Assembly (NCBI RefSeq): GCF_004359195.1
Contig: NZ_CP037954.1
Span: forward strand, 2,542,001-2,606,000
DNA length: 64,000 nucleotides
DNA from: Chryseobacterium salivictor
Lineage (GTDB): Bacteria; Bacteroidota; Bacteroidia; Flavobacteriales; Weeksellaceae
Direction: 5' to 3'
Shown: positions 8,811-17,362 of the stretch, piece after piece
How the letters are laid out: the number at the start of each line of letters is the position of its first letter
Position numbering within the stretch: position 1 is the stretch's first letter
The notes under the pieces: generated by a model
The model's database searches: none
What the model was told of the DNA's origin: nothing
The model's input: only the letters and a program-made list of their open reading frames with translations
Made by a program: the position numbers and the translations under genes

Positions 8811-9005
8811 GTACGCAGAGACGCAATGTTTTGCGTCTCCTTTTAAAACAGAATGTTTTGCGTCTTTTAAGACGCAAAACATTGCGTCTATAATTACAAC
8901 GCCCATAAAGACGTAAAACGGTTTCATTCATTCCCGCAGAGACGCAGTTATTCCCGCAGAGACGCAGCAGTTATTCCCGCAGAGACGCAATGCATTACGT
9001 CTCTA
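8811..9005. repeat. REP-like palindrome cluster downstream of and inside the RAYT 3' end
   Basis: Several related palindromes built on the core GAGACGCAA/TTGCGTCTC. One copy at 8818-8839 has perfect 9-bp arms. A 15-bp-arm hairpin (8852-8866 with 8869-8883) overlaps another GACGCAA/TTGCGTC pair. Three direct copies of TTCCCGCAGAGACGCA begin at 8931, 8951 and 8974. The last runs into a near-perfect 24-bp palindrome at 8981-9004, which lies inside the transposase coding end. Confidence 0.9.
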
Positions 9006-9664
9006 TTTTTAAATTGATCATTATCCCATTTTTCGGGATTATTGATAATGTATTGGGAAATCCTTTCAAATTCTCCCTCATTGCGGATAATGTGATCATG
9101 AAATCGCGGTTGCCATTGAAAATCAGGATTTATCTGACGCGCTGCAACGGTGACAGATGATTTAAACCCGCGGATAATAGATGCCAGATTTTTGGATTGT
9201 GGGCCGAATTGGTTTTTGGAGGTAATGGGGATATTTGTGGGATCCACCGTGGCAATGGGATTCACCACGCCAATGGGATTCACCACCACCGTAGAGACGC
9301 AATGCATTGCGTCTCTACAATCCCCGTTACCGTTACCGTTACCATTCCCATCGCCATCCCCCGATTCCCGTTTCATATTATATTCATTTTCCCCAATACC
9401 GATGATGGCGTGAAAATGATTGGGCATCACGACAAATTCACCCATGAATAGATTCATATCGGGGCGCAATTCAAATGTTTTCAACCATTCCCGTTCTGCA
9501 ATCCTACCAAGGTCCGACAACTGCATTTTGCCTTTGGTTATTTTGCCAAAGAAATGGGCTCTGTCGTGGGTACAGATGGTAATGAAATAGAAACCTGCCT
9601 TACCGTAATCCCAGCTTTGTAAACGGGCAGATGAAATGCGGTATTTATTATTAAAATGATCCAT
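8948..9664 (-). mobile_element. REP-associated Y1 transposase (RAYT), IS200-like HUH family
   Basis: A 238-residue protein of the Y1/REP-associated tyrosine transposase family. The HUH metal site is HFH at residues 83-85 in VVMPNHFHAIIGIG, and the likely catalytic tyrosine is Tyr205 in FERISQYIINNPEKW. Such proteins cut single-stranded palindromic ends and are thought to spread REP sequences. Residues about 99-147 are a low-complexity insertion (Gly/Asp/Asn repeats) not expected in the family, and it contains RDAMHCVST, encoded by a perfect 28-bp REP palindrome. The last 18 residues (RDVMHCVSAG onwards) are also read from repeat DNA. Both catalytic motifs are intact; activity cannot be judged. 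REP copies lie on both flanks. Confidence 0.88.
9291..9318. repeat. 28-bp perfect REP palindrome inside the transposase gene
   Basis: GTAGAGACGCAATG (9291-9304) is followed by its exact reverse complement (9305-9318). It lies in frame within the RAYT gene, and because it is palindromic the opposite strand also spells DAMHCVST. Hexamer repeats of CCGTTA follow at about 9325-9342. Confidence 0.95.
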
Positions 9665-9813
9665 AGGTTTAAATTGTGTTTAGTTAGTAGAGACGCAATG
9701 CGTTGCGTTCTCAAATCCATAGTTTTAAATTGTGTTTAGAGACACAAATACATTTCGGTTTCCGATCCATAATTTTAAATTGTGTTTAGAAACGCAATGC
9801 CTTGCGTCTATAC
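9658..9813. repeat. triplicated block (leader segment plus REP palindrome) upstream of the RAYT
   Basis: Three head-to-tail copies, beginning at 9658, 9714 and 9764, of a segment like GATCCATAGTTTTAAATTG followed by TGTTTAG and a GAGACGCAA..TTGCGTCTC-type palindrome. The palindromes range from nearly intact (9689-9712) through degenerate (about 9739-9761) to intact again (9787-9813). The first copy contains the RAYT start codon; the last contains the stop codon of the next gene. Confidence 0.85.
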
Positions 9814-10527
9814 AGATTTTGCGAAAAGGTAGGTGGAGCTGCCGTGAACAGCGGCGGTATGTAGAGGCGTTGCAGATTTAAAAATAAGGGTGCCCGTCAC
9901 CACCAACCACGCAGAATCATCAGGGATCCCGAATTTCCAAACGGTAGGGAGGGTGGCCTGGAAAATAGAAAGATCCGCGGTGTGGGAACTGATCAGGTTA
10001 AGATTGATGGTTCTGCTGAGCGGATTTACCGTAAAAGCATCCAGTCTTAACTCAGCACTCCGTGCATCTTGGGGAAGCACAATTTCCCGTCCTGCTTTCA
10101 GAGCCGGAAACCGGCATTCGAGCTCCCTGGTATCGGACAGTCTGAATTCTGGATAAAAGCGGGTGATTTTTTCCCAGGGACAGTGTGCATTAAAGTCGAA
10201 ACCGGTTAGCGATTCCGGCAATCCGAGGTTGTGTTCTGCATCCTGATGGTTTTGTTGACTGTGCACCATCAGTGCCTTGTTCATTCTGGCGCGGTGTCTT
10301 GAAGCATACCTGCTGTCGGTAATCAGCGGCAGTTGGCGAGTCAGTGCCAGGCGGAACAGTTTGTCCTGGGCACTGGCAAAACCGAAGGCCTTCGCAGCCG
10401 CTTTTGTTTTTGGGGTCTGTTGAAGCCCCGAAGGCTTTGTACGTACATAACTTTGGGATTCGCTATTGACGAATACCAGGTTTCCTAAGGCTCCGCTCAG
10501 AATACCGTTTTTTGAAATTCTTGCCAT
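9808..10527 (-). CDS. hypothetical protein, possibly DUF6266-like, ending inside a REP copy
   Basis: A 239-residue soluble protein starting MARISKNGILSGALGNLVFVN, with no signal peptide or membrane segment. The start faintly resembles DUF6266-type proteins of Flavobacteriia (recollection, not shown). The middle is mixed alpha/beta and gives no catalytic signature. Its TAG stop (9808-9810) lies within a REP palindrome, so insertion of the repeat may have set the present C-terminus. The coding DNA is visibly richer in G+C than its neighbours. Just upstream are 11-bp phased repeats (10637-10669). Confidence 0.6.
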   Translation of the reverse strand: MARISKNGILSGALGNLVFVNSESQSYVRTKPSGLQQTPKTKAAAKAFGFASAQDKLFRLALTRQLPLITDSRYASRHRARMNKALMVHSQQNHQDAEHNLGLPESLTGFDFNAHCPWEKITRFYPEFRLSDTRELECRFPALKAGREIVLPQDARSAELRLDAFTVNPLSRTINLNLISSHTADLSIFQATLPTVWKFGIPDDSAWLVVTGTLIFKSATPLHTAAVHGSSTYLFAKSV

Positions 10528-11208: not shown

Positions 11209-11330
11209 AACTTTGGCAAAGTTGATAGAATACGCTATTTGCTAAGGAGGAGAAAAGTGAGAAAGAAGAAAAATGTTATCTAGCTTACCTAGCTCCTAAC
11301 TTTGCCAAAGTTCTAAACTTTGACAAAGTT
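11209..11330. repeat. AACTTTG-CAAAGTT dyad cluster
   Basis: Three copies of a short dyad: AACTTTGGCAAAGTT (11209-11223), AACTTTGCCAAAGTT (11298-11312) and AAACTTTGACAAAGTT (11315-11330). The last two are adjacent. Likely a dispersed intergenic repeat; a 61-codon minus-strand open frame through it (11296-11481) probably comes from the repeat. Confidence 0.7.
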
Positions 11331-11559
11331 GATTAATGCGCGGCTTTTTTGGACTTTTGACCAATTTAAATTGCATCAATCTTTTGCGGCTTTTGGGGTT
11401 GAATAGGATGGAGCCACAGCGCATACTGAGAAAATATTTTACGGAATGTTCCGGCCTCTTAACAGACCGGTTGGAAAACATTTGCTGCTTTTACGGTTTC
11501 CCTTTTTGCGGGATTCGCTAAAAAGAGTATCTTTAAAACTTAACATCTAAATAATATTT

Positions 11560-12665: not shown

Positions 12666-14399
12666 ATGAAATTTGACTCAATAGAAAAACTTTTAAATTA
12701 TGGGATCTTTACAATTCCTGAATATCAACGTGGTTATTCGTGGACAAAGGACCAATTAGATGATTTACTGAATGATTTAAGTGATGTTGAATTTATAAAA
12801 GAACATTATGCAGGAACAATAACCTTGATAAAATCTGGACAAGAAAAAATTGGAATAACTGATTTAACAAAATATGACATTGTTGACGGGCAGCAGAGAC
12901 TGACAACATTTCATTTATTTTTAGTAAGTATTTATCATAGAATCAGTGAAATTGATCCTCTACAAGCAGATGCTGTAATTATTAAAAATGTTTTAAATAA
13001 GGGCAAATCCCTACTTCGTTTAAATAGCAAAGACAATCAAGAATTTTTCTTTGCATTATTAAATGAACTCGACATAAATATAATTAAGAAGTATGCGCCA
13101 AAAAGTAAAACTCAAAAAAATCTCTTAAATACAAGAATACATTTCAATACATATTTACAACGGTATACCTCAATAAACACACTCGTAAAAATTTATAACA
13201 ACCTATTATCAAAATTTAAGGTTAATGTTTTTGAATTAGAAGAAGAATCTGAAGTAGGTTTAATATTTGAGACAATGAATGATAGAGGCTTGCCTTTATC
13301 CGATATGGATAAAGTGAAAAATTATCTAATTTATTTAACTCATCGTTTAAATGAAAAAACGATAGCAAAGGAAATAAATAGAAAATTTGGCGATATCTTT
13401 ACAGAATTGATGGAAATTAAAAACTATTCAGTAACAAGAATAGAGAATCAATTTCTAAAACATTGTTATATTGTTTATAGCGGAGATAATAATAACTTGT
13501 CTGATATACCCAAAAAGATAAAAACTGAATTGATTAAACAAAGGGAAATTTTTGCAAAAAAAAATCTTTTTGACAATGATACTGCACAAAGAGAAAAGAA
13601 GATTAAGGAAATAAAGGATTTCAATAATTTTCTGCAAAAAAGTGCCAATTATTATTCTGCTGTTTTAAATCAAAGTTTTGATATTCAAAATGTAAATGAT
13701 TCTCTTTACAGACTTGAAACTTTAGGTAAAATTGAATCTTTCTTACCATTGTACTTAGCCGTACTAAATAATAAAAAATTCAAACCTGAATTTCTCATTG
13801 CTATAAATGAAATTTTAGAGGCATTTACTATTAGAGTTTTTATTTTCGGAAATAAAAAAGGAAATACTGGAAATTCAGCGTTATTCGAACTTGCATATAA
13901 GGTTTTTACTAATAAGATCAATTTCACAGAACTTAAAAAAGAATTGCGGAATCTTATTGAAAAGAACAGCAGTAATTTAGATTTGAGAAAGTCCATCATT
14001 AATATGGGCGCATACAATAGTATTAGTAATTCTTCCTTAAAACTTATATTGTTAGACTATGAATATTATTTACAAGGAGAATTATCTGCAAAGTTTGATA
14101 TTGGATCAATCAGAGAGATAGTTAGTAATGGCAAAATCACTATTGAACATATAGCTCCCCAAACAATTCTTCCTGGGGTTAAGGCTATGGAAAACATAAA
14201 TTTGTTGGGCAATTTAGTTTTAACTTTTGAAAATGGTGTTTTAGGGAATAGAACATTTCTCTCTAAAAGAAGCACTTATGCCAAATCTAATTTTGCATCT
14301 GAAAGAGAATTAATTGGATATGAAGATTGGAATGATAAAACAATTCTCGAAAGAGGGAAAAAAATTCAAAAATTCATAATGGACAAATGGAAAGCATAA
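12666..14399 (+). CDS. DUF262-DUF1524 protein, GmrSD-type restriction-like nuclease
   Basis: A 577-residue fusion. The N-terminal DUF262 (GmrS-like) domain shows IPEYQRGYSW near residues 17-26 and the nucleotide-binding/hydrolysis motif DGQQR at about 74-78. The C-terminal DUF1524 (GmrD-like) His-Me nuclease domain shows EHIAPQ near 494-499 and then NLLGNLVLTF and GNRTFLSKRSTYAKS. In characterised members (GmrSD, SspE, BrxU) these domains cut modified DNA or sense DNA modification, so a phage-defence role is likely but inferred. The gene is strikingly AT-rich compared with the SPFH gene before it, is flanked by inverted REP-like sequence, and has no modification partner nearby, consistent with a stand-alone type IV-like system acquired by transfer. 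Confidence 0.85.
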   Translation: MKFDSIEKLLNYGIFTIPEYQRGYSWTKDQLDDLLNDLSDVEFIKEHYAGTITLIKSGQEKIGITDLTKYDIVDGQQRLTTFHLFLVSIYHRISEIDPLQADAVIIKNVLNKGKSLLRLNSKDNQEFFFALLNELDINIIKKYAPKSKTQKNLLNTRIHFNTYLQRYTSINTLVKIYNNLLSKFKVNVFELEEESEVGLIFETMNDRGLPLSDMDKVKNYLIYLTHRLNEKTIAKEINRKFGDIFTELMEIKNYSVTRIENQFLKHCYIVYSGDNNNLSDIPKKIKTELIKQREIFAKKNLFDNDTAQREKKIKEIKDFNNFLQKSANYYSAVLNQSFDIQNVNDSLYRLETLGKIESFLPLYLAVLNNKKFKPEFLIAINEILEAFTIRVFIFGNKKGNTGNSALFELAYKVFTNKINFTELKKELRNLIEKNSSNLDLRKSIINMGAYNSISNSSLKLILLDYEYYLQGELSAKFDIGSIREIVSNGKITIEHIAPQTILPGVKAMENINLLGNLVLTFENGVLGNRTFLSKRSTYAKSNFASERELIGYEDWNDKTILERGKKIQKFIMDKWKA

Positions 14400-14450: not shown

Positions 14451-14629
14451 CACAATTAAAAACCCATTGAATTATGGAGCAACCATGTCATTAAACAAAA
14501 AATAGATTACGTACATAAGCTGGTTTGGTTTTCAGGGCGGAAGATTACCAGTACAGCAGTGCAATAGATTATTCGGATGAGAAAGGGCTTCTGGATGGTA
14601 TAGAGGTTTTCAGGATGTTATATTTTTGA
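14451..14629 (+). pseudogene. C-terminal remnant of a second REP-associated transposase
   Basis: Translation gives HN-stop-KPIELWSNHVIKQKIDYVH, then after a frame change AGLVFRAEDYQYSSAIDYSD followed by EKGLLDG, ending at TGA 14627-14629. This is the typical RAYT C-terminal pattern, in which an IHxNPVRAG link joins YIH to AGLV; here that link is lost by a small deletion or frameshift. A nonsense codon also sits at 14457-14459. There is no upstream catalytic half, so it is dead. It belongs to a different RAYT branch from the intact gene at 8948-9664. Confidence 0.75.
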
Positions 14630-14828
14630 TCAGGTTTAAGTATTGGGGCCATACGTAAGGGTTCGTGCAGCAGGGGGCAGCGCGAAAATGCAAATACTTT
14701 GCTATATTTGGTTTAATAATAAAGTATCACTTTAGTCATACAAATGCACCGGTTTTTTATGACTTTATATGATTTTGTCATATAACGAGTTGTACACAAT
14801 ATTAACAAGGACATAATACGAAAATGCT
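14630..14828. other. gap upstream of the small lipoprotein gene
   Basis: Contains a consensus -7 box TATATTTG (14703-14710) about 120 bases before the next gene, repeated TCATA motifs (a TATGAC/GTCATA dyad around 14757-14782), and TTGTACACA at 14790-14798, whose inverted copy follows the gene. Confidence 0.45.
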
Positions 14829-15188
14829 TTGAATAAAATTAAATTTATACTTTTATTGATCTTATCAAATTCTTGTTCTCCATTAATAGAAAACGGAATT
14901 ATTGTTGAAATAGAAAACAACTCAAAACTTTCAGTTATAGGTGTGCAATTTTACACAACTGAAAAACTAATAACTTTAGATTTTGATAAAATTAAACCTG
15001 AGGAAACCATGTCGGGTTTTCTATCAATGAAAAATAATAAATCTGATGGTGGTTATGTTTTAGACTTTATCGGTGCTAATGGCGAAAAAGAACATACGGT
15101 TGTCGGCTATTATACTAACGGCGGTTCGCTTGATAGAAAAGTTAAGTTTACTATAGAAACTAAAAAAACACTCGTAAAGTTCGATTAA
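14829..15188 (+). CDS. small hypothetical lipoprotein
   Basis: A 119-residue protein with a lipoprotein signal (FILLLILSNSCS, cysteine at about residue 16), followed by a short beta-rich domain with no recognised family. The start must be TTG at 14829, because the nearby ATG (14824) runs into a stop after two codons. A five-base insertion after an original ATG would explain this arrangement. The gene is bracketed by 9-bp inverted repeats (14790-14798 and 15207-15215) and lies between RAYT fragments, so recent acquisition is plausible. Function unknown. Confidence 0.6.
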   Translation: MNKIKFILLLILSNSCSPLIENGIIVEIENNSKLSVIGVQFYTTEKLITLDFDKIKPEETMSGFLSMKNNKSDGGYVLDFIGANGEKEHTVVGYYTNGGSLDRKVKFTIETKKTLVKFD

Positions 15189-15400
15189 AAGAATATTAAA
15201 AAATACTGTGTACAATAAATAAGCTTTCGTTTTGTCTGCAAGAAATGAAAGCCCGTTGAACGGAACCTTCGGTAGCTTTTTGTCAGCATGTTGGTAACCT
15301 TAGGGAGTTATTCACTCGCTGGCAAAATCTCCTGCCCGCTGCACAAAATATCCTGACCCTCAGCCTTCTAAAAATCACTACCTTTGATAAAACACAACTC
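15189..15400. other. leader region of a former RAYT gene with promoter
   Basis: Includes TACCTTTG at 15379-15386, a consensus -7 box 14 bases before the ATG at 15401. This probably was the promoter of the lost transposase and now serves the fused lipoprotein gene. The remainder shows no coding signature. Confidence 0.5.
15379..15386 (+). promoter_or_regulatory. -7 promoter element, transposase-derived, before the chimeric lipoprotein gene
   Basis: TACCTTTG fits TAnnTTTG. The short distance to the ATG (15401) leaves a leader of fewer than 10 bases if transcription starts at the usual distance. Confidence 0.5.
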
Positions 15401-16507
15401 ATGAAAACTGGCTATGTCATCAGGGATCAGGAAAAACCACATTTTGTAACAGCTACTGTTGTTGACTGGTTTGATATTTTTACAAGGAAAACCTATCGCG
15501 ACACCCTTGCATTTTTCACACTCACTTTATTGTTTTTAAATACTGTAGCCTGCAATGGTGGCCAATCGGCCGAAACGGTAAAGGGAATAAAGAAACCGGA
15601 AACCGTAAAAATGGATTCCGTAGAGAAAAAAACAGTGAGCACCATTGATACGGTGGATTTCAATAAAAGAATACGCGCATTAAGCAACAGTGACGCTTCC
15701 GGAAAATGGCCTGTAAAAGCGCCTTATCCTTTGTCCGGAGCGTTATTGCCTTACCATAGAATTGTTGCTTTTTACGGAAATTTATATTCAACAAGAATGG
15801 GAATCTTAGGGGAACTGCCCCGAAAAGAAATGCTGGCGAAACTGGAGGGCGAAGTAGCCAAATGGCAAGCTGCAGATTCTGCGGTGATAACAATTCCTGC
15901 TTTGCACTACATTGCGGTGACAGCTCAGGGTGAACCGGGAAAAAATAATATGCACCGCCTGCGGATGCCCTTTCACCAGATTGACACGGTGATCAGTTGG
16001 GCAAAACCCATCAATGCATTGGTGTTTTTGGATATTCAGGTGGGACACAGCTCCGTGAAAGGGGAAGTTACAGAACTGGAACCATACCTTTCTATGCCCA
16101 ATGTACATCTTGGAATAGATCCTGAATTTTCGATGAAAAACGGTGAACGGCCAGGTTCCAAAATTGGGTATTTTAATGCCGCAGATATTAATGATGCCAT
16201 TGATATCTTAGCAGACATCGTACGCAAAAACAAGTTGCCTCCAAAAATACTGGTGGTCCACCGGTTTACGCAGGGAATGGTGAAAAATTATAAAGAAATC
16301 AAAACCGTTCCCGAAGTCCAGATTGTCATGAATATGGATGGTTTTGGAAGTAAAAGTTTAAAAAAAGACTCTTATGTGAGTTATATTTACAGAGAACCTG
16401 TACAGTTTACCGGTTTCAAATTATTTTATAAAAATGATCTGAAATTGTATACTCCCGAAGAATTAATGAAATTCACGCCGATACCGATTTACATCCAGTA
16501 CCAATAA
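15401..16507 (+). CDS. chimera: RAYT N-terminus fused to a putative hydrolase lipoprotein
   Basis: A 368-residue frame in two parts. Residues 1-34 (MKTGYVIRDQEKPHFVTATV, then VDWFDIFTRKTYRD) are the canonical N-terminus of a REP-associated transposase, cut just after TYRD. Residues 35-51 are a hydrophobic lipoprotein signal (LAFFTLTLLFLNTVAC). The remainder starts with a linker and a domain containing IVAFYGNLYSTRMGILGE, IAVTAQGEPG, VFLDIQVGHSSV, LGIDPEFSM and ILVVHRFTQGM. The acidic residues at strand ends look like a TIM-barrel hydrolase, similar to uncharacterised actinobacterial lipoproteins (recollection). No native ATG precedes the signal peptide, so it appears to use the transposase start. 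The 34-residue extension should hinder export unless translation starts internally, for example at a TTG within the signal. It pairs with the deacetylase 12 bases downstream. Confidence 0.7.
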   Translation: MKTGYVIRDQEKPHFVTATVVDWFDIFTRKTYRDTLAFFTLTLLFLNTVACNGGQSAETVKGIKKPETVKMDSVEKKTVSTIDTVDFNKRIRALSNSDASGKWPVKAPYPLSGALLPYHRIVAFYGNLYSTRMGILGELPRKEMLAKLEGEVAKWQAADSAVITIPALHYIAVTAQGEPGKNNMHRLRMPFHQIDTVISWAKPINALVFLDIQVGHSSVKGEVTELEPYLSMPNVHLGIDPEFSMKNGERPGSKIGYFNAADINDAIDILADIVRKNKLPPKILVVHRFTQGMVKNYKEIKTVPEVQIVMNMDGFGSKSLKKDSYVSYIYREPVQFTGFKLFYKNDLKLYTPEELMKFTPIPIYIQYQ

Positions 16508-16519
16508 TTTAATTTTTAA

Positions 16520-17362
16520 GTGATGAAAAATATTGTTGAGTCCGTTTTTGTTGCGTTGTTTTTATGGGTTGGCTGTCAGCCGGAACCTGCTAAAATAACT
16601 GCCGGGACGACGGTTATTGCCGCTCCCGCAAAAATCACAGCGCCAAAAAAAGTCAGGGCCGCTGCGGCGACTGTTCTTTCGAGAAAAGAAGTGCCGGTTT
16701 TATGCTATCATAATATTAAGGATTTCAGCGCCAGTGCGGGTGAAAACACAAAAGTGTATACCGTAAAACCTGCTGCCTTTGCGGAACAGATGAAAGCTTT
16801 GGCAGATGCCGGATACCAAACCGTTTTACCTGAACAGCTATATAACTATTTAGTTTTTGACGGTCCGTTACCAGAAAAACCCATCATGATTACCTTTGAT
16901 GATACGAGGGGAGCACAGTTCAGTATTGGCGCAACCGAAATGAAAAAATACGGTTTCAAAGGCGTGTTTTTTATCATGACCGTTTCTGTTAACCGTCCCG
17001 GATATATGACTAAAGAACAAATCAAAAGTTTATCGGACGACGGGCATGTTATCGGAGCACATACCTGGGATCATCATAGGGTCACTAAATACGCTGGAGA
17101 CGACTGGAATATACAATTGGTCAAACCAAAGGCTCAACTGGAGGAAATCACCGGTAAACCGGTAACCGATTTTGCTTATCCGTATGGATTATGGAATACC
17201 GCGGCCATCGATGAAATAAAAAAGAGTGATTATAAAATGGCTTATATATTATCTACCAAAAGAGATCCTGTAGATCCATTATACACCATCAGACGGATGA
17301 TCGTTTCGGGAACCTGGTCAACTCAGGGAATGATGAACGCTGTTCATTCTTCATTTCACTAA
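16520..17362 (+). CDS. polysaccharide deacetylase (NodB-type, CE4) lipoprotein
   Basis: A 280-residue protein with a lipoprotein-type signal (FLWVGC, Cys19), an Ala/Lys/Thr-rich linker and a NodB domain. Motif 1 is TFDD (125-128), motif 2 HTWDHH (181-186) and motif 3 YPYG (220-223), so the metal-binding Asp-His-His set (Asp128, His181, His185) is present. It likely removes acetyl groups from an envelope polysaccharide or peptidoglycan. The gene follows the chimeric lipoprotein gene by 12 bases and is probably its operon partner; both would act on the cell surface or periplasm. Confidence 0.88.
   Translation: MMKNIVESVFVALFLWVGCQPEPAKITAGTTVIAAPAKITAPKKVRAAAATVLSRKEVPVLCYHNIKDFSASAGENTKVYTVKPAAFAEQMKALADAGYQTVLPEQLYNYLVFDGPLPEKPIMITFDDTRGAQFSIGATEMKKYGFKGVFFIMTVSVNRPGYMTKEQIKSLSDDGHVIGAHTWDHHRVTKYAGDDWNIQLVKPKAQLEEITGKPVTDFAYPYGLWNTAAIDEIKKSDYKMAYILSTKRDPVDPLYTIRRMIVSGTWSTQGMMNAVHSSFH

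Follow-up and report, generated by a model that had tools for sequence, protein, structure and literature searches.

A transposase 5' end as the probable source of promoter and start codon for an acquired lipoprotein gene in Kaistella

Why does a predicted lipoprotein gene begin with the first codons of a transposase gene, and what would those codons do for it? The locus lies in a stretch of 64 kb, referred to here as the window, which comprises bases 2542001-2606000 of a 3.14 Mb single-contig genome placed in Kaistella (Weeksellaceae). In the list of open reading frames of the window, ORF 15401-16507 encodes 368 amino acids in which the start of a RAYT-type (REP-associated Y1) transposase is joined in frame to a lipoprotein: the protein begins MKTGYVIRDQEKPHFVTATVVDWFDIFTRKTYRD and continues TLAFFTLTLLFLNTVAC, with the lipobox cysteine at codon 51 (15551-15553). 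A preliminary description of the DNA had reported this in-frame join to a lipoprotein signal with Cys51, and the ORF and its coordinates are as described there. The features discussed below are collected in Table 1.

Table 1. Features of the fused gene and its surroundings (positions in the window)
Feature	Position	Strand	Basis
3'-part remnant of a second, different RAYT	14451..14677	+	84.6% to 3' part of the G026 RAYT ORF
Degenerate REP-like motif on the RAYT 5' side, cgctgcacaaaatatcctgaccctcagc	15337..15364	+	aligned with the exact REP motif preceding the intact K. soli RAYT
-7 promoter box TACCTTTG, TAHHTTTG type, RAYT-inherited	15379..15386	+	TATCTTTG at the equivalent place in relatives
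Codons 1-34, RAYT-derived N-terminus MKTGYVIRDQEKPHFVTATVVDWFDIFTRKTYRD	15401..15502	+	protein and DNA similarity, third-position excess
Fusion junction, RAYT GACA / Flavobacterium-type acnCTTGCA	15500..15508	+	alignments; end and start points of similarity
Codons 35-50, signal peptide h- and c-region TLAFFTLTLLFLNTVA, Flavobacterium-derived	15503..15550	+	aligned with ...STIAFITLPLLLLSTLA of Flavobacterium orthologues
Mature lipoprotein, Cys51 to stop; predicted glycoside-hydrolase-like barrel	15551..16507	+	structure model
Downstream member of the acquired pair, a polysaccharide deacetylase with a separate lipoprotein-like signal	16523..17362	+	PF01522, E 1.8e-23

The RAYT identity of codons 1-34, also proposed in that description, is borne out by comparison with intact genes. 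Codons 1-36 of the fused ORF are 72% identical to an intact RAYT of the same genome (C1:1689907-1690014; E 3.6e-15), and the DNA from 15336 to 15503, which takes in the REP remnant, the -7 box, the leader, the ATG and all 34 codons, is 82% identical over 169 nt to an intact RAYT of Kaistella soli. The source of codons 1-34 and of the 5' region with its REP-like motif is of the RAYT or TnpA-REP type, as characterized in the consulted portions of Nunvar 2010 (PMC2817692) and of the subclass scheme (PMC6006769); by eye, the motifs NHIH, WQ, YIHLNP and SS of the intact K. soli RAYT come near Bacteroidetes subclass 2.6 in the portion of that scheme consulted (PMC6006769). The intact RAYTs of the window species and of K. 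soli exceed the Pfam cut-off for Y1_Tnp (PF01797), whereas neither the fused ORF nor its first 35 codons matches any Pfam family at E ≤ 1, and the fused gene has neither the HUH motif nor the catalytic tyrosine of Y1_Tnp. It also differs from RAYTs in having no downstream REP: the intact K. soli RAYT is flanked by the same 27-base REP on both sides in inverted orientation, the second copy following the RAYT stop (by eye), and the fused gene has a degenerate REP on the 5' side only. Judged by sequence, the stub is RAYT-derived, but the fused gene itself is not a RAYT.

Further RAYT sequences surround the fused gene in the three genomes that carry it, namely those of the window species, of K. 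soli (the nearest named relative with the unit) and of a third Kaistella, G026. In K. soli an intact RAYT ends 378 bp before the fused ATG. In G026 an additional 62-base copy of the RAYT 5' region immediately precedes the fused one, and a second-type RAYT lies about 1.9 kb upstream, of which the window retains only the 3' remnant (56% over 25 amino acids to a RAYT C-terminus, E 0.002). The fusion site is a RAYT hotspot. RAYT N-terminus matches occur in 116 of the 320 family genomes, and among the matches listed the frame of the window is the longest (415 codons), followed by frames of 291 and 287 codons; the matches listed do not include the degenerate G026 and K. soli stubs, and equally old fusions would therefore escape detection in this way.

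The part of the gene downstream of the junction has a different history. DNA similarity to Flavobacterium glaciei runs from 15503 to 17356, the end of the deacetylase gene, with the gene order alike and up to 84% identity over 318 residues of the lipoprotein. The lipoprotein core is present in 3 of 320 Weeksellaceae genomes, all of them Kaistella (3 of 36 genomes of the genus). For comparison with orthologues we kept 80 loci out of 569, one from K. soli and the other 79 from outside Kaistella; a deacetylase homologue was found in 49 of the 80, K. soli among them. With an orthologous core and a neighbouring deacetylase gene, the Kaistella locus carries a pair of the Flavobacterium type. In the gene tree the Kaistella trio (100/100) falls within a starred set of 13 rows (96/84), the remaining 10 of which are all Flavobacterium. 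The restriction to three genomes, together with this nesting, points to horizontal acquisition of the lipoprotein-deacetylase pair. A native Kaistella gene lost by the relatives is unlikely given the same distribution and tree, and a Flavobacterium donor that was already fused was rejected, as none of the 79 non-Kaistella loci showed RAYT similarity in the DNA fetched around the orthologue.

The orthologues that lack the extension show what was replaced. The nearest Flavobacterium sequences (L023 to L032 and L063) have an ATG of their own, with the start MKK, 19 or 20 codons before the cysteine, as in MKKSTIAFITLPLLLLSTLAC; in Kaistella TYRD stands where those orthologues have MKK(S), and the native start is missing, with the RAYT promoter box and ATG in its place. 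The same start appears in two orthologues, those of G026 and K. soli, and both carry RAYT-derived sequence; the refuting case named in the preliminary description, such a start with no transposase homology, therefore does not arise among them.

All three Kaistella species share the point at which RAYT codon 34 meets the lipoprotein sequence, and the junction aligns without gaps, which indicates a single shared fusion; separate fusions in each species were rejected on the same alignment. Downstream of the deacetylase gene, the stretches of the window, G026 and K. soli contained no RAYT C-terminal half, so the 3' part of the RAYT gene was lost or never present, and a clean insertion into a RAYT gene was discarded as an explanation. 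Within the trio the gene tree pairs G026 with K. soli (99/73, not starred), whereas typA and the SPFH gene group the window species with G026 (dS 0.36-0.45, against 0.72-0.73 between the window species and K. soli). For the lipoprotein-deacetylase unit, dS between the window species and K. soli is 0.39-0.45. In the window and in G026 the unit lies between the SPFH gene and typA, and in K. soli on a contig apart from both. The lower dS of the unit and its separate contig in K. soli indicate that the already fused unit moved between lineages or came from a shared source. An empty-site comparison at typA found no SPFH gene in the 1.5 kb flanking each of 30 typA loci; the SPFH gene is present in 14 of 36 genomes. 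The preliminary description had envisaged capture of promoter and start after an insertion or deletion: the replacement of start and promoter stands, whereas a recent event affecting a single gene gives way to an old fusion that involves an acquired two-gene unit and is shared by three species.

The interval between the SPFH gene and typA is variable in other respects as well. In the window it holds a GmrSD-type restriction gene (12666-14399; PF03235, PF07510); G026 carries different genes in it. Upstream of the SPFH gene the window has a single copy of a 132-base stretch (11297-11428), of which G026 has several tandem copies (L132 reversed, 1427-1938).

In Flavobacterium johnsoniae promoters have a -7 element of the form TAHHTTTG, a weak -33 motif and a G at -5, according to the portion of PMC6847099 consulted. 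TACCTTTG at 15379-15386 fits this consensus, which would place the transcription start near 15391. The position assigned to the box in the preliminary description is correct, and TATCTTTG occupies the equivalent position in both other fusions and in two intact RAYTs, that of K. soli and L106. This strand of the window contains 59 instances of TAnnTTTG, and the calculated chance of meeting one within 40 bp before a chosen ATG is about 4 in 100. Among the three fusions 4 of 35 columns vary in the box and leader (15367-15400), against 15 of 32 in the REP remnant (15335-15366). The REP arm of the intact K. soli RAYT carries TTTG 18 bases before the -7 box; the fusions have CCTC, TCTC or TTTA at that -33 position, which indicates that the -7 element was kept and the -33 element was not. 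A full -33/-7 promoter (TTG-N17-23-TAnnTTTG) is absent at the fused locus and was rejected. It also counts against use of the RAYT box and ATG that the leader would measure only about 10 nt and that the base at -3 of the window ATG is C, since A is favoured at -3 of the start codon in the consulted portion of PMC6847099.

Whether the stub is translated can be approached through its pattern of change. Among the three fusions 7 of 42 columns vary in codons 1-14, 16 of 36 in codons 15-26, 13 of 27 in codons 27-35 and 11 of 48 in the signal h-region, so that after the box and leader, codons 1-14 are the best conserved RAYT-derived stretch. In gap-free columns of the stub 17 of 29 changes fall at third positions (p 0.0013 in 100000 column shuffles, 0.0015 on repetition); in codons 1-25 of the three sequences the excess has p 0.013. 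Stub dN/dS is 0.23-0.24 in all three pairs, which are not independent; G026 and K. soli alone give dN/dS 0.24, with third-position p 0.044 over 34 codons and 0.16 over codons 1-25. Polarisation against intact RAYTs assigns 23 changes, 12 of them at third positions, and the excess depends on six ambiguous changes, of which five are third-position ones. The reading frame is open in all three species, and a 6-nt loss in the G026 stub preserves it. In codons 35-90 (signal and linker) dN/dS is 0.5 to 1.5, which shows that a coding pattern can be missing even where translation is required; the lipoprotein core (codons 91-368), at 0.11-0.14, indicates that the gene is kept; the deacetylase has dN 0.05-0.07 at dS 0.31-0.45 in all pairs. 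Gene conversion by RAYTs could import a coding pattern. On these three sequences, translation from the RAYT ATG receives moderate support.

That no native ATG precedes the signal peptide, as had been noticed, holds true: in the window species neither ATG nor GTG occurs in frame between codon 1 and Cys51, and the in-frame candidates there are ATC, ATT and one TTG (codon 44), which lies inside the h-region, 7 codons before the cysteine. The ATG at 15401 is thus the only conventional start preceding the h-region in this species. G026 and K. soli have, besides GTG pairs, an in-frame ATG 25 codons before the cysteine, where the window has ATT; intact RAYTs have isoleucine or valine at that codon, so the internal ATG is derived. 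It may represent a repair of the long n-region in the G026/K. soli lineage.

The preliminary description had expected a 34-residue extension to block the signal peptide or to force a non-ATG start. This expectation is not upheld: the h-region is intact and follows RKTYRD, and the 34 codons vary as coding sequence does. A hydrophobic run followed by LNTVAC provides the h-region and lipobox cysteine, as read from the sequence alone, and the highest 11-residue Kyte-Doolittle mean is 2.53 in the window species, against 2.30 and 1.91 for the remaining fusions and 2.66 and 2.75 for a pair of Flavobacterium orthologues. Counted from the RAYT ATG the n-region would comprise 34 residues; initiation at the internal ATG in G026 or K. 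soli would shorten it to about 9. The stub would most likely act as a long but tolerated n-region. Long N-terminal parts ahead of an ordinary Sec h-region are likewise known in autotransporters (PMC2805444, consulted in part). The autotransporter and two-partner proteins treated in that portion of PMC2805444 have a common domain organisation, whereas here a transposase stub precedes a lipobox.

We therefore weighed several readings of the stub and of the unit. RAYT DNA might give promoter and leader only, with translation starting inside the stub and the extended protein absent or a minor product. In two of the three species an internal ATG does lie at a normal distance for a lipoprotein signal, and from codon 15 onward the stub is at its most variable; the window species, however, has ATT at that codon, a rare start codon, and the conservation of codons 1-14, the third-position excess in codons 1-25 and the frame-preserving loss in G026 all run against an internal start, which we regard as unlikely. 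Alternatively, the coding pattern would be borrowed, kept or renewed in a neutral stub by gene conversion with intact RAYTs. The window stub shows more identity to the intact K. soli RAYT (81%) than to the other fused stubs (79% and 75%), stub dS (0.44-0.85) exceeds that of the core (0.35-0.39), and RAYTs are common in the family. Yet the window species' own intact RAYT (L102) is just 70% identical to the stub, the low dN/dS is seen between G026 and K. soli alone, and a slow branch from the RAYT ancestor accounts equally for the likeness, which leaves this reading quite improbable.

As for the unit as a whole, its movement between lineages might be that of a non-autonomous RAYT-type element mobilized in trans by intact RAYTs, the RAYT 5' end forming its left end and the gene pair its cargo. 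The K. soli copy does stand elsewhere, beside an intact RAYT, with dS below that of flanking-type genes, and the surroundings in G026 and the window are RAYT-rich; but an inverted REP after the deacetylase gene was not seen by eye in any of the three, target-site evidence was not found, and ordinary recombination or transfer explains the move, so that we consider such an element very unlikely. The least probable reading, to which we give almost no weight, is that the fused gene is inconsequential, a remnant that is decaying or not expressed: the REP and the -33 region are degenerate and the G026 and K. soli stubs have several radical residue changes, but the constraint on core and deacetylase and the open frame in three species contradict it. 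We consider it probable that the RAYT promoter and ATG now drive the acquired lipoprotein gene, its product bearing a 34-residue stub that would be removed at Cys51.

The function of the pair can be approached through structure prediction. Searches of Pfam, NCBIfam and PDB by sequence gave nothing firm for the lipoprotein. The model of the mature part (pLDDT 87.4, pTM 0.88) has 5oq3 (Cwp19) as its best VIA-align row (Z 13.4, rmsd 3.1, 205 residues aligned), followed by GH5 and GH18 chains, with GH5 rows at Z of about 12 and aldolase rows at 11.7; the best Foldseek hit is human O-GlcNAcase (E 2.2e-4, TM 0.40). The mature part is predicted to have a glycoside-hydrolase-like barrel fold, and fold alone gives no function. 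The best NCBIfam row of the deacetylase is PgaB, far below the cut-off (68.5 of 321.9). PgaB holds deacetylase and barrel parts in one protein; a similar architecture appears here, the modelled barrel adjoining a PF01522 deacetylase, with the parts in two proteins. From the barrel model and the adjoining PgaB-like deacetylase we infer that the pair may handle glycan processing at the cell surface.

Several mobile-element features were noticed nearby. Repeats at 15205-15311 (repeat B) and 14684-14794 flank a small lipoprotein-like ORF (14829-15188), and copies of these repeats (L134-L139) occur in four genome clusters, where most of them follow a lone small ORF. An imperfect hairpin in repeat B, gctttcgttttgtctgcaagacaagaaatgaaagc, is conserved and stands between AAC and GTTGAAC; this arrangement looks like an integron attC site, and 14684-15250 may accordingly be a stray cassette. 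The second half of repeat B (15255-15311) is matched by DNA 166 bases ahead of three tyrosine integrase frames (G000 C1:2130004, 2138717 and 2141875), one of them followed by a Y2_Tnp (IS91-like) gene, and looks like the end of an IS91-type element inserted at GAAC of attC-like sites. The integrases tested or read adjoin Y2_Tnp (IS91-like) genes; a test of integron membership for the locus gave a best integrase score of 147.5 bits, below the cut-off of 265, which says little, since all 14 control genomes also gave hits below that cut-off. On the minus strand, an ORF at 8948-9664 with NHFHAII resembles an HUH transposase by eye (no Pfam match at E ≤ 0.01), and an ORF at 9808-10527, itself without a Pfam match, shares a similar N-terminus (KNG.LSGA.GN.VFVN) with one at L137 2147395-2148105; one of these two sits in a cluster of repeats and integrases.

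The events that would have produced the fused gene can be outlined as follows. A lipoprotein-deacetylase pair of Flavobacterium origin would have entered Kaistella and been joined to RAYT codon 34, presumably at a few shared bases (ACA), the remainder of the RAYT gene being lost. As the Flavobacterium orthologues show, the join removed the native promoter, the ATG and MKK(S). The RAYT 5' region would then supply -7 box, leader and ATG, the presence of box and ATG resting on comparison and their use being a supposition. RKTYRD would replace MKK as the charged n-region ahead of an unchanged Flavobacterium h-region and lipobox, and the stub would be cleaved off with the signal peptide on lipoprotein processing at Cys51. 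In G026 and K. soli the in-stub ATG may share or take over initiation. The fused unit would later have shifted genome position or host between Kaistella lineages. A further proposal is that selection has kept the stub, with the initiation region setting expression of an acquired cell-surface gene, RKTYRD serving as n-region and the unit spreading between Kaistella lineages as RAYT-associated cargo, so that a transposase 5' end would have been exapted as a leader for expression and export; we regard this as doubtful.

Capture of promoters and starts from insertion sequences is a general phenomenon, and the present case is alike in that a mobile-element promoter and start codon would drive the adjacent gene after a join. 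It differs in that a RAYT gene, usually single-copy, takes the place of an outward insertion-sequence promoter, in the coding stub before the signal peptide and in its persistence in three species. Our literature searches found no RAYT case of promoter or start capture and no transposase-lipoprotein fusion, which does not prove their absence. Acquired genes need a promoter and a start readable by the new host, and here the join, the lost native start, the type of donor transposase and the later evolution are all visible in three species. The fusion sits ahead of an export signal, a position at which added residues are commonly expected to abolish function. It provides a natural and testable example of the n-region length that a bacterial lipoprotein signal can bear, and of RAYT genes as donors of coding sequence in addition to REPs.
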